From contig NZ_CP100470.1 of assembly GCF_030323145.1 (NCBI RefSeq), positions 930,001 to 994,000 of the forward strand: a DNA stretch of 64,000 nucleotides, written 5' to 3'. The notes beneath the pieces were generated by a model. That model was not told where the DNA came from. It ran no database searches and saw nothing but the letters and a program-made list of their open reading frames with translations. Source of the stretch: Mesorhizobium sp. C432A (lineage in GTDB: Bacteria; Pseudomonadota; Alphaproteobacteria; Rhizobiales; Rhizobiaceae). The position numbers and the translations under genes were made by a program. Shown here one piece after another: positions 17,460 through 20,627 of the stretch (position 1 is the stretch's first letter; each line of letters starts with the position of its first letter).

Positions 17460-17975
17460 TCATGACCGCCTCACGCCTTCGCCCAAGACGACGAGAAGCT
17501 CGTCCAATTGCTCGAACGTCTCGCCCATCGCATCCGCCGCCCCGGTACCGGCCGCGTCGAGAGCCTCCTTCGAGGGATAGAGTTCGTGCATGACCAGCAG
17601 CGTATTACCACCCTTTTCCTCGAAGGTCAGCGTGGTGACGGGTCCACCGTCACCACCTTCGTCATTGGTCCAGACAAGGCGTGAGTGCGGTGTCACTTCG
17701 ATATACCTGCCGAAGAATTCGTGAAGGTCCGAGGCGTCGTGGCCGAACACCAGGCGGTACGTGCCTCCGGTACGAGCATCCATCTCACATGAACGCAGGA
17801 ACATGCCCATCGACTTCGGCACCCACCACTGCTTGAACAGCTCGGGCTTGGTCCACGCCTCGAACACGATGCGCGCCGGACCGTTGACTGTTCGCGTGAC
17901 GACCAGCTCGCGCTCGGACTTCCGTTCGACCGTCGTGCGGTTGTTCGTGGGCTCACTCTCGGTTCTTTGGCGCAT
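17460..17975 (-). CDS. SRPBCC (AHSA1-type) domain protein
   Basis: 171 residues with the AHSA1/Aha1-like START fold: VTRTVNGPARIVFEAWTKPELFKQWWVP at the front and ...LTFEEKGGNTLLVMHELYPSKEALDAA near the end. Proteins of this type typically pair with a small ArsR regulator; here the ArsR gene lies upstream and the coding regions overlap by 23 bases, so they are translationally coupled. The ligand is unknown. The role is inferred as a stress-inducible small-molecule-binding or chaperone-like protein. Confidence 0.85.
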   Translation of the reverse strand: MRQRTESEPTNNRTTVERKSERELVVTRTVNGPARIVFEAWTKPELFKQWWVPKSMGMFLRSCEMDARTGGTYRLVFGHDASDLHEFFGRYIEVTPHSRLVWTNDEGGDGGPVTTLTFEEKGGNTLLVMHELYPSKEALDAAGTGAADAMGETFEQLDELLVVLGEGVRRS

Positions 17976-18312
17976 CGGCTTTCTCCTTCCGTTTCAATTC
18001 CTCGACAACCTTGTCCAACTCGTTGAAGCGTGCGTCCCAGAGCAGGCGGTGCCGCTCGATCCAGGCCGCCTCTTCCTCCAGTCCGCGCAGGCCGAGCTTG
18101 CAGGTCCGCACGCGGCCAACCTTCTGCGTGGTGACGAGCCCCGCCTGCTCCAGGACGCCGACGTGCTTCTTCATGCCCGTGAGGGTCATGTGGAACTTTC
18201 CGGCAAGCTCGGTGATCGAAGCGTCTGCGCGTCCGAGCTGCTCCAGAACGCCACGCCGGGTGGCGTCCGAGAGCGCGGCGAACGAGGAATCCAAGTCGGT
18301 ATACTGAACCAT
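17953..18312 (-). CDS. ArsR-family winged-helix regulator
   Basis: 119 residues, a compact ArsR/SmtB-type winged helix (FAALSDATRRGVLEQLGRADASITELAGKFHMTLTGMKKHVGVLEQAGLVTTQKVGRVRTCKL). No metal-binding CxC motif is present, consistent with the non-metal subgroup paired with AHSA1 proteins. The ATG (18310-18312) lies inside a perfect palindrome, suggesting tight autoregulation and a very short or absent leader in the mRNA. Confidence 0.9.
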   Translation of the reverse strand: MVQYTDLDSSFAALSDATRRGVLEQLGRADASITELAGKFHMTLTGMKKHVGVLEQAGLVTTQKVGRVRTCKLGLRGLEEEAAWIERHRLLWDARFNELDKVVEELKRKEKADAPKNRE

Positions 18313-18387: not shown

Positions 18388-19479
18388 TCAGGCGGCGCCC
18401 GGCCGGTTCTCCATCATGGCGCGGCGGGCTGAGCGGCGCCATTCTACGGCGCCGGCGAGGCCGTGCAGCACAGTCTCTGTGGTCGCCCAGTCGATGCAGC
18501 CATCTGTGATGCTCTGGCCATAGACGAGCGGCTTGCCTGATACCACGTCCTGCCGGCCGGCGACGAGATTGCTCTCGATCATGACGCCGATGATACGCTC
18601 GTCCCCTGCTGCCACCTGGCCGGCGACATCGGCCGCCACCTTCGGCTGGTTCTCCGGCTTCTTGCTCGAGTTGGCGTGGCTGACATCGATCATCAGACGG
18701 GGGGCGACGCCGATGCGGGCAAGTTCGACCGAGGCCGCCTCGACGCTCGCCGCATCGTAATTCGGCTGAACGCCGCCGCGCAGGATGACGTGGCAGTCCT
18801 CATTGCCGGTAGTAGTCGCAATGCCGCTGCGTCCGCCCTTGGTCACCGCCATGAAATGATGCGGCTGGGCGGCGGATTTCACCGCCTCGGCGGCGATCCT
18901 GAGATTGCCGTCGGTGCCGTTCTTGAAGCCGACCGGGCAGGACAGGCCGGAAGCCAGTTCGCGGTGGATCTGGCTCTCGGTGGTGCGCGCGCCGATGGCG
19001 CCCCAGGCGACGAGGTCGGCAATGTATTGCGGCGTCGTCATGTCGAGAAATTCGGTGGCCGAGGGCAGGCCGAGATTGTTGACCGCCGACAGCACGTTGC
19101 GCGCCATCCGCAGCCCCTTGTCGATGTTGAAGCTGCCGTCGAGATCGGGATCGTTGATAAGGCCCTTCCAGCCGACAGTCGTGCGCGGCTTTTCGAAATA
19201 GACCCGCATGACGATCTCCAACCGGTCGGACAGGGTCTCGCGCAGCGCCACTAGCCGGCTGGCATAGTCAACGGCCGCGACCGGGTCGTGGATCGAACAC
19301 GGGCCAACGATGACAAGCAGCCGGTCGTCGGTGCCGTTCAAGATGGCATGGGTGGCGTTGCGTGATGCGCTCACGGTGCGCGTTGCCGTCAGCGTGCGCG
19401 GGATCTCCCGCATCACCTCGTCCGGCGTACTCAATTCTCGGATTTCCTTGACCCGAAGATCGTCTGTGGTGGTCAACAC
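18388..19479 (-). CDS. aroG: 3-deoxy-7-phosphoheptulonate synthase (class I DAHP synthase)
   Basis: 363 residues of the AroF/AroG/AroH class I type. Diagnostic segments are LLVIVGPCSIHDPVAAVDYA, RVYFEKPRTTVGWKGLINDPDLDGSFNI, GARTTESQIHRELASGLSCPVGFKNGTDG and DVSHANSSKKPENQ. It condenses phosphoenolpyruvate with erythrose 4-phosphate, the entry step of aromatic amino-acid synthesis. The start is a GTG at 19477-19479 with AGGAG ten bases upstream. Transcription appears to be controlled by an attenuator with a Tyr-Trp-Tyr-Phe leader peptide (19521-19649). The symbol is generic; which of the AroF/G/H feedback types it is cannot be told. Confidence 0.95.
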   Translation of the reverse strand: MLTTTDDLRVKEIRELSTPDEVMREIPRTLTATRTVSASRNATHAILNGTDDRLLVIVGPCSIHDPVAAVDYASRLVALRETLSDRLEIVMRVYFEKPRTTVGWKGLINDPDLDGSFNIDKGLRMARNVLSAVNNLGLPSATEFLDMTTPQYIADLVAWGAIGARTTESQIHRELASGLSCPVGFKNGTDGNLRIAAEAVKSAAQPHHFMAVTKGGRSGIATTTGNEDCHVILRGGVQPNYDAASVEAASVELARIGVAPRLMIDVSHANSSKKPENQPKVAADVAGQVAAGDERIIGVMIESNLVAGRQDVVSGKPLVYGQSITDGCIDWATTETVLHGLAGAVEWRRSARRAMMENRPGAA

Positions 19480-19520
19480 GGCTTTCTGCTCCTGTTTTTA
19501 GGAGACCTGCCGGCTGATAC

Positions 19521-19545
19521 AAAAAAGCCGCCAGGTCTGGCGGCT
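19521..19545 (-). terminator. Attenuator terminator before DAHP synthase
   Basis: On the minus strand, AGCCGCCA and TGGCGGCT pair as an eight-base stem around a GACC loop and are followed by six T residues. It begins 24 bases after the leader-peptide stop and ends about 40 bases before the structural gene. Its 5' arm can instead pair with CTGGCGGC inside the leader coding region (19591-19598), which would prevent termination. Confidence 0.85.
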
Positions 19546-19568
19546 GTTCGGACTTGTTGCTGCAATCT

Positions 19569-19649
19569 TCAGATCGAGCGCAATCCTCCCGCCGCCAGCG
19601 AGCTGCTAAAGTACCAATAGGTGGCGGTCAGGTTGATCATCAGGCTCAT
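19569..19649 (-). CDS. Leader peptide of DAHP synthase attenuator
   Basis: A 26-codon frame starting MSLMINLTATYWYFSSS. Codons 11-14 are Tyr-Trp-Tyr-Phe, all three aromatic products of the pathway the downstream gene starts. Codons 8-10 contain CCGCCA (complement at 19622-19627), which can pair with TGGCGG in codons 18-20 (19591-19598). That same segment can alternatively pair with the 5' arm of the terminator. This gives the classical 1:2 or 2:3 then 3:4 choice. Ribosome stalling at the aromatic codons would mask segment 1 and favour antitermination. The ribosome site is weak and the ATG at codon 4 is an alternative start. Confidence 0.75.
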   Translation of the reverse strand: MSLMINLTATYWYFSSSLAAGGLRSI

Positions 19650-19720
19650 ATAGTCGATGCCGAGGCGCTTGTCACGTGGGGTATGCGGAGACAATTCGGG
19701 ATGGGCCGAATCCTCGCGAT

Positions 19721-19906
19721 TTCGTCATCCCTGGGCGGAGCAGGAGCGAAGCTCCGTCGCGGAGACCCTGGGATCCATTCCGTGACCTGGGCCGTGGAGT
19801 GCGGCGGAGCAGAATTCTGGACCGTAGCAGCGCTCTGAAGTCGCGGCATGGATCCTCGGGTCTGCGCTGCGTCGCTACGCTCCTTGCTCCGCCCGTGGAT
19901 GACGAA
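19721..19906. repeat. Long inverted-repeat element, TTCGTCATCC family
   Basis: TTCGTCATCC at 19721-19730 and GGATGACGAA at 19897-19906 bound a 186-base element. Both ends carry the motifs of the compact repeat at 8265-8326 (GGCGGAGCAGGAGCGAAGCT on the left; its diverged complement on the right). The centre is an unrelated insert-like stretch of about 60 bases. No coding function is apparent. Confidence 0.6.
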
Positions 19907-19952: not shown

Positions 19953-20375
19953 TCATGCCGTCCAGGGATCGAAGAGTTCAAGCCCAAAGCCTTCGAAATC
20001 TTTCGTATTGCACGTTGCCAAGGTGAGCTCGTGCGCAATCGCAGTGGCTGCGATCAGGCCGTCCATCGACGACAGACCACGACCGCGGCGCTTCGCAAGA
20101 CCCATCAGGTCGCCCCAGGCCAAGGCAACCGCATCGTTCACCGGCAAAACCCGCTGTTCGAAGCGCTGGGGCAGGTCCCGGGCAAGCCATTCGGCCAGCG
20201 CCTCGCGTTTGCGGCCCTCATCCATCAGAGAGACGCCGCGCCGGATCTCGGCGATCGACACTACGCTGATGAAGGAGCGGTCCTCATCAAGCTCGTCCAG
20301 CCAGCCCAGGACACGTGCGTCAGGCGCTAGCCTCGTCACCTCGGACAGGACATTCGTGTCGAGCAGCAGTCTCAC
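19953..20375 (-). CDS. PIN-domain toxin, VapC/FitB-like ribonuclease
   Basis: 140 residues. It opens with the PIN motif LLLDTNVLSEV, has a central acidic segment (SVVSIAEIRRGV) and the C-terminal SSMDGLIAATAIAHELTLATCNTKDFEGFGL, so the acidic metal-binding residues appear intact. The predicted product is an Mg-dependent endoribonuclease toxin. The start is a GTG overlapping the upstream Phd-type antitoxin stop (GTGA), a normal coupled arrangement. The antitoxin frame is damaged near its start, which makes the state of this locus interesting. Confidence 0.87.
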   Translation of the reverse strand: MRLLLDTNVLSEVTRLAPDARVLGWLDELDEDRSFISVVSIAEIRRGVSLMDEGRKREALAEWLARDLPQRFEQRVLPVNDAVALAWGDLMGLAKRRGRGLSSMDGLIAATAIAHELTLATCNTKDFEGFGLELFDPWTA

Positions 20376-20627
20376 GGCGGCAGGTCACGCGGTTCGTCGC
20401 GCTGACGTTCAAGCTCGAGATCGGCGCCGCGCAGCGGCGAGTCCAGCAGGAACTCGGCAAGCGTACCCTTGCGTGCGATCTTGCGCTGCCATTCCTCGGC
20501 CGAGACGACAACCACGCTTGGTTTGCCGTTCTTGGTGATCGTCTGCGGCGAGGACTGTGCGCGCTCGATGACCTCGGAGAGCCGGGCTTTTGCCCCGGCA
20601 ACCGTCCAGTTGGGATGACGTTAGCAT
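20372..20627 (-). pseudogene. Phd/YefM-type antitoxin with a broken start region
   Basis: About 77 residues of a clear Phd/YefM antitoxin are readable: WTVAGAKARLSEVIERAQ, then TITKNGKPSVVVVSAEEW, then a toxin-binding tail ending in EPRDLPP. In that frame there is no ATG, GTG or TTG before the DNA-binding region: upstream comes TAA at 20621-20623. The ATG at 20625-20627 is in another frame, one base out, and would give MLTHPNWTVAG... if a single T in ACGTCAT were removed. Either a one-base insertion or a nonsense change (ATG CGA TGC TAA from 20632) has disabled it. A sequencing error cannot be excluded. Confidence 0.6.

Follow-up and report, generated by a model that had tools for sequence, protein, structure and literature searches.

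The closest published case that we found is the aroR leader of C. glutamicum, which, according to the parts of its description that are available, precedes the DAHP synthase gene aroF, encodes Phe-Tyr-Phe, and controls transcription through ribosome stalling (PMC11802643, PMC4046766), with an effect that is enhanced under Phe limitation and unaffected by Tyr availability (PMC11802643). By that description, aroR resembles the Mesorhizobium leader analyzed here in setting a stalling-controlled aromatic leader peptide ahead of a DAHP synthase gene and is unlike it in its Phe-Tyr-Phe code, with no Trp reported, and in its actinobacterial origin. A second relative is trpL of rhizobia, which in S. 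meliloti is reported to be a leaderless ORF, with rnTrpL and peTrpL acting in trans (PMC7298713, PMC10117765); as far as the available accounts go, it shares with our locus a small ORF at the 5′-end (leaderless there and probably here), control codons, and a terminator, but it has Trp codons only and precedes anthranilate synthase, not the gene for the enzyme that opens the common pathway. The Phe leaders found at pheA and pheST carry a comparable run of Phe (and Tyr) codons, and some are weakly matched by the covariance model described below; however, they precede other genes, and the Rfam family Phe_leader (RF01859) does not reach its gathering score of 55 at our leader, where it is far below at 16.4 bits (E 3). 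In the ilvGMEDA and thrABC attenuators of E. coli, one leader likewise carries codons for more than one amino acid from a single pathway; they differ from this leader in that these are branched-chain or Thr/Ile codons. Finally, database entries collected in Table 7 of PMC1173090 include predicted attenuators of unstated kind ahead of aroA-I-alpha > tyrA in Vibrio, which are similar in that an attenuator is predicted before a proteobacterial DAHP synthase gene; unlike the present case, no leader peptide is named in the available part of that paper, and three Vibrionaceae loci inspected here (L098, L101, and L104) are without a leader by our criteria.

Control of DAHP synthase transcription in E. 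coli is attributed, in the sources partly available to us, to TyrR and TrpR. In the accessible portions of the open-access literature we found no proteobacterial DAHP synthase gene described as attenuated through an aromatic leader peptide (such an account may exist in subscription papers) and no DAHP synthase leader that joins Phe, Tyr, and Trp codons; the available parts of PMC1262725 and PMC5343134 describe no attenuator of the former kind, and the main text of PMC2965389, on premature terminators, is without aroF, aroG, aroH, or "aromatic." The original prediction for this locus, made from sequence alone, knew of no described Tyr-Trp-Phe version; no leader with all three was found, but aromatic-leader attenuation had already been reported at C. 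glutamicum aroF in the text available. The mechanism is classical; the novelty lies in the gene controlled, in the mixed code, and in how widely the arrangement occurs.

The window is a stretch of 64,000 nucleotides from Mesorhizobium sp. C432A (contig NZ_CP100470.1), and the features of interest, listed in the direction of transcription, are:

19670–19675, minus strand: −35-like hexamer GTGACA, its spacing conserved in relatives.
19647–19652, minus strand: −10-like hexamer TATATG, 17 nt after the −35 hexamer and holding ATG 19649 (sequence, spacing in relatives).
19569–19640, minus strand: leader ORF, likeliest start ATG 19640, 23 codons MINLTATYWYFSSSLAAGGLRSI plus stop, probably leaderless (sequence, relatives).
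19622–19627, minus strand: segment 1, CCGCCA, a possible protector arm for segment 2 (folding).
19608–19619, minus strand: control codons Tyr-Trp-Tyr-Phe, codons 8 to 11 of the 23-codon frame (conservation).
19591–19598, minus strand: segment 2, CTGGCGGC, within the leader ORF, the antiterminator 5′ arm (pairing with segment 3).
19537–19544, minus strand: segment 3, GCCGCCAG, common to antiterminator and terminator (covariation).
19521–19534, minus strand: 3′ half of the terminator, comprising segment 4, CTGGCGGC (19534–19527), and six T (19526–19521) (covariation, folding, terminator scan).
19505–19514, minus strand: GCCGGCAGGT, a conserved motif 3′ of the terminator (conservation in relatives).
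19489–19493, minus strand: AGGAG, Shine-Dalgarno sequence of the DAHP synthase gene (sequence).
18388–19479, minus strand: class I DAHP synthase (aroFGH type), GTG start, 363 residues (profile match).

The complementary segments named by the original prediction were all located on the minus strand, as was its intrinsic terminator with six T residues, which is the only terminator detected between 19470 and 19960 (shuffle mean 0.2). Its central proposal, classical attenuation at a DAHP synthase gene, is supported by the comparison across relatives presented below, and we consider it highly probable, from the conservation of the sequence, that this region is a ribosome-mediated transcription attenuator of the class I gene.

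The product of that gene scores 521.8 bits against TIGR00034 (aroFGH; cut-off, 173.2), as expected of a class I DAHP synthase, but 539.8 against the AroG model NF006723, below the cut-off of 568, and we therefore refer to it as class I DAHP synthase rather than by the originally proposed name aroG. Its nearest named relatives are from Mesorhizobium, with 97% identity in M. ciceri WSM4083. The same genome also encodes a class II DAHP synthase, and none of the small ORFs listed for its upstream 600 nt (counted from the match) carries a run of at least three aromatic codons; the genome also has a Trp leader, MNMRSIKTIWWWAR, ahead of trpE(G).

We inspected 142 class I DAHP synthase loci, mostly the closest relatives returned by searches rather than a random draw, and scored a leader where a terminator of sufficient score was accompanied by at least four aromatic residues within eight. 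These criteria select 117 of the 142 loci, from Bradyrhizobium, Devosia, Methylosinus, Bordetella, Burkholderiaceae, Oxalobacteraceae, Xanthomonadales, and others in addition to Mesorhizobium; the 25 excluded loci probably include two missed leaders (L074 and L082) and perhaps two more (L095 and L117). No leader was found by the same criteria at nine enterobacterial or Vibrionaceae loci (L097, L098, L100, L101, L102, L104, L105, L106, and L109). The upstream alignment that the original prediction had proposed bears it out: aromatic codons, terminator, and complementarity between segments 2 and 3 recur in Mesorhizobium, Bradyrhizobium, and Devosia and, more widely, at many beta- and gammaproteobacterial loci. 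On this comparison of sequences, the conserved elements are the frame, the aromatic codons, the terminator, the 2:3 complementarity, the spacing, and the linkage to the gene.

Within the genus, 37 loci yield 23 distinct leader ORFs, in which codon 8 is Tyr (13) or Phe (10) and codons 9, 10, and 11 are Trp, Tyr, and Phe, respectively, in all 23; the aromatic class of codons 8 to 11 is therefore kept throughout, with synonymous changes at codons 8 and 10 and an invariant TGG at codon 9, and some genomes add further aromatic codons behind these four. Beyond the genus, the idea that all three aromatic amino acids are read together holds for Phe and Tyr, which are present in 117 of 117 runs, but Trp is facultative (92 of 117). 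With groups assigned by hand, by name and likeness, Trp is found in the runs of all 37 Mesorhizobium, 13 Bradyrhizobium, 5 Devosia/Hyphomicrobiales, and 12 Xanthomonadales-group loci, in 13 of 17 of the Burkholderia group, in 1 of 14 of the Oxalobacteraceae group, and in 11 of the 19 others. Such a distribution lends some credit to a reading in which the leader is an attenuator that in practice responds to only one or two amino acids (Phe and Tyr, for instance, or the one with the slowest tRNA) and carries its Trp codon as a passenger. The near absence of Trp from the Oxalobacteraceae group fits this well, as does C. glutamicum aroR, where Tyr lies within the Phe-Tyr-Phe code and its availability is nevertheless reported, in the available text, to be without effect (PMC11802643). 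On the other hand, complete retention of Trp in four groups would be unlikely for a passenger, and so would a codon 9 that is TGG in every distinct Mesorhizobium ORF. We regard a restricted response as a possibility of some substance, though on balance a tentative one, and infer that in Mesorhizobium each of the three amino acids counts; a leader of this kind should lose its response to one amino acid when the corresponding codon is changed.

The leader ORF most likely begins at ATG 19640. The frame of 26 codons originally described, from ATG 19649 to a stop ending at 19569 and including Tyr-Trp-Tyr-Phe, is present, but ATG 19649 lies inside the probable −10 hexamer and is missing in relatives that keep the second ATG (e.g., L025, L027, and L029), so that a start at 19640, with 23 codons, is the more probable. 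TATATG ends 6 nt upstream of this ATG. It was not called by a strict sigma-70 consensus scan, which found no promoter. In relatives, a −35-like TGACA (TCGACA at two loci) begins 34 to 36 nt upstream of the leader start codon at 52 of 55 loci from three alphaproteobacterial groups (Mesorhizobium, 37/37; Bradyrhizobium, 10/13; Devosia/Hyphomicrobiales, 5/5). The three exceptions, all from Bradyrhizobium, have another in-frame ATG 6 nt farther upstream, from which the usual distance is regained. In these groups, the hexamer that best resembles a −10 box ends 6 to 7 nt before the ATG at 32/37, 9/13, and 2/5 loci, respectively, and in the Xanthomonadales group such a box ends 7 to 9 nt upstream in 8/12. 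In the Burkholderia (17/17) and Oxalobacteraceae (11/14) groups, the best box lies 22 to 40 nt upstream, and leaderless starts would therefore mark only some groups. A Shine-Dalgarno-like sequence precedes 1 of 117 leader starts (scanned 4 to 16 nt upstream; 0 of 37 in Mesorhizobium) versus 110 of 117 DAHP synthase starts, for which the scanned range, 4 to 18 nt, was 2 nt wider. The spacing of 6 nt in the window and the missing Shine-Dalgarno sequence agree with the pattern of rhizobial trpL-type leaderless ORFs (−10 box ~6–8 nt before the ATG, no Shine-Dalgarno sequence). With a promoter so placed, transcripts would start on ATG 19640 or no more than about two bases from it, and leader translation, lacking a Shine-Dalgarno sequence, would probably initiate at the very 5′-end.

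To follow the leader in whole genomes, we used a covariance model (R1) built from an alignment (A1) of 56 leaders, three of them from Mesorhizobium, from which one locus (L145) was omitted as too long and alike rows had been thinned. Full-length R1 matches with E <1e-18 occur in 134 of the 140 genomes of the genus. The remaining six (G006, G013, G573, G586, G587, and G611) have no strong R1 match, no class I DAHP synthase at E ≤1e-20, and in every case a class II enzyme; in four small genomes with a match, the class I gene lies directly behind the leader. Since the six genomes without a leader match are also without the class I gene, leader and gene are present together or absent together in the genomes checked. 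With a threshold of E ≤1e-80, class I DAHP synthase is scattered through the class (8 of 241 genomes of an even sample, our own included) and common in the phylum (168 of 299 sampled genomes). The 299 phylum genomes contain 43 R1 matches with E ≤4e-8, of which 42 precede a class I DAHP synthase gene and one precedes pheS, match and gene positions having been compared by hand. Five weaker matches elsewhere precede pheS (L209, L210, L211, and L213) or a chorismate mutase/prephenate dehydratase gene (L212); most matches with E above ~1e-6 in the phylum sample are confined to the 3′ part of the model, and the large genome searches used stricter filters that lose weak matches. In a quick, midpoint-rooted protein tree of 116 rows (26 of the 142, all same-genus, were thinned out, and L074 and L082 were labeled leader-positive by hand), the leader label needs nine changes versus a shuffle mean of 21.4. 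A simple reading of these sequences is that the leader is of old origin and was later lost in places.

Covariation is strong for the terminator pairs and moderate for the antiterminator pairs. For the terminator, 96.2% of the A1 cells are paired, four of nine pairs are changed on both sides, and none of 500 shuffles is as high on any of five measures; however, loci were chosen for having a terminator, so its conservation is partly by selection, and only the antiterminator result is independent. For the latter (segments 2:3), 84.8% of cells are paired, with two-sided changes at four of eight pairs (11/500 shuffles as high), ten further pair types (18/500), and a covariation score that no shuffle equals (0/500); five pairs at its core hardly vary, and pairing is lost in 30 of 56 rows at the loop-side position and in 17 and 14 rows at the two outer ones. 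The originally proposed set of three mutually complementary segments thus stands for 2:3 but not for the pairing of CCGCCA with segment 2 across the phylum, where 1:2 pairing in the 56 sequences is at shuffle level (75.6% versus 75.0%) and shows no covariation, so that this hairpin was rejected as a phylum-wide feature. The consensus structure predicted for the alignment is the terminator only, and folding of the single sequence is modestly better than that of shuffles (z −2.08; 9/200 as good); it is the comparison of relatives that carries the case. In the window, no Rfam match attains the gathering score of its family, and five subthreshold matches on the leader region (RNAI, Phe_leader, BjrC1505 twice, and isrK) were set aside as chance or mere likeness. 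Past the terminator, a GCCGGCAGGT-type motif occurs within 40 nt at 35 of 37 Mesorhizobium and 13 of 13 Bradyrhizobium loci, and GCCGGCAGG occurs there at none of 67 other loci. Its assignment to a downstream hairpin was rejected, as read-through folds are no better than those of shuffles (10 to 28 of 100 as low, eight loci).

The spacing of these elements suggests how they would work together. In 80 of the 117 leaders, the last aromatic codon ends 9 nt upstream of segment 2, and for folding the front of a ribosome was taken to lie 12 nt past the first base in its A site. If Tyr-, Trp-, or Phe-tRNA is short, a ribosome would halt at codons 8 to 11 with its front at the edge of segment 2, leaving this segment free to pair with segment 3, which would block the terminator and allow transcription of the DAHP synthase gene. 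With the assumed footprint, segment 2 is wholly free when the ribosome stands at Tyr8, Trp9, or Tyr10 and is free in all but its first base at Phe11; the RNA then exposed as far as the end of segment 3 folds as the 2:3 helix, at −29.9 kcal/mol in the first three positions and −27.9 kcal/mol in the last. With all three amino acids plentiful, the ribosome would reach the stop codon, segment 2 would be occupied (in this genus probably by segment 1 behind the ribosome), and segments 3 and 4 would pair, stopping transcription after ~120 nt; a ribosome in that position leaves just segments 3 and 4 free, which form the terminator hairpin at −14.4 kcal/mol. Behind it, the stretch that ends at its assumed trailing edge, and in which segments 1 and 2 could pair, folds at −12.3 kcal/mol. 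Segment 2 lies 19 nt from the stop codon at all 37 same-genus loci and, by the usual footprint, ends about at the trailing edge, where it is just cleared and not covered; termination in the genus therefore probably depends on the 1:2 hairpin, itself unproven. In a textbook attenuator, the ribosome that has reached the stop codon covers segment 2, and the Burkholderia and Oxalobacteraceae groups, with the stop codon 4 to 13 nt past segment 2 in 12 of 17 and 8 of 14 loci, respectively, would be closer to that layout. For a ribosome standing at Trp9, equilibrium folding of the RNA through the U tract gives the terminator form, and the model thus needs the RNA to fold in the order of its transcription.

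DAHP synthase governs entry into the synthesis of all aromatic amino acids, and the leader would, very probably, let Mesorhizobium turn on this first-step enzyme when these amino acids run short. If so, a genome like this one, which also has the class II enzyme, could leave its class I enzyme unexpressed until starvation; and in other bacteria, a leader whose codons combine Phe and Tyr, often with Trp, would explain how the first step is matched to all three end products. In its most extended form, the proposal would make one leader an OR gate on the charging of Phe, Tyr, and Trp tRNA for entry into the shikimate pathway, ancestral to a large proteobacterial class I clade, leaderless in rhizobia, and perhaps releasing a terminated RNA that acts in trans like rnTrpL; as a whole, this chain of statements is unlikely.

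Action in trans may also be considered by itself, as an addition in which the released leader RNA or peptide works like S. meliloti rnTrpL or peTrpL. The last 12 leader codons, stop included, are nearly invariant at the nucleotide level across Mesorhizobium, beyond what the 2:3 helix alone would need, and the rhizobial precedent is of this kind in the available text (PMC7298713, PMC10117765); however, the peptide tail varies between clades, and the constraint on the RNA could be structural, so that we consider such a function unlikely. Far less probable is a constitutive terminator that merely follows a conserved small protein gene, with no regulatory coupling: the evidence for coupling comes from sequence, but across groups the small ORF keeps little beyond its aromatic codons and the segment 2 core, and the 2:3 complementarity is maintained, a pattern that speaks against this reading. 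A ligand-binding riboswitch or protein-binding leader is the least credible of all, as it could at most draw on the motif at 19505–19514 and nothing specific favors it, while Rfam offers no family, the alignment predicts only the terminator, and conservation follows the codons.

Around the attenuator, the minus strand of the window carries, downstream of the DAHP synthase gene (17460–18312), an HTH regulator (PF12840) followed by an AHSA1-domain protein (PF08327). On the far side, a VapC-like PIN-domain protein (PF01850) is encoded at 19953–20375, also on the minus strand, and a short ORF just upstream of it (20372–20515) has a translation without a Pfam match. Between this gene and the leader promoter, 19725–19905 is a repeated intergenic element with 37 matches in its own genome (E ≤1e-3), several of which represent a single site read on both strands; apart from itself, its closest copies show 91 and 90% identity.

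Variants of the leader were also observed at individual loci. In Rhizobium tropici and two genomes of the same family as ours (L086, L141, and L144), the leader contains RFYSYRCSQR or RFYWYRCSQR, and CCGCT replaces CCGCC in segment 3 together with AGCGG in segment 2, a matched change. A Chloroflexota MAG (Anaerolineae; L095) has a small ORF with YFSFFSWYGYF before its class I DAHP synthase gene, with no terminator by our criteria. Finally, R1 led to aromatic leaders (e.g., FFAFYFWFS) before DAHP synthase in one family of the phylum sample (f177; L216–L222), outside the 142 loci.
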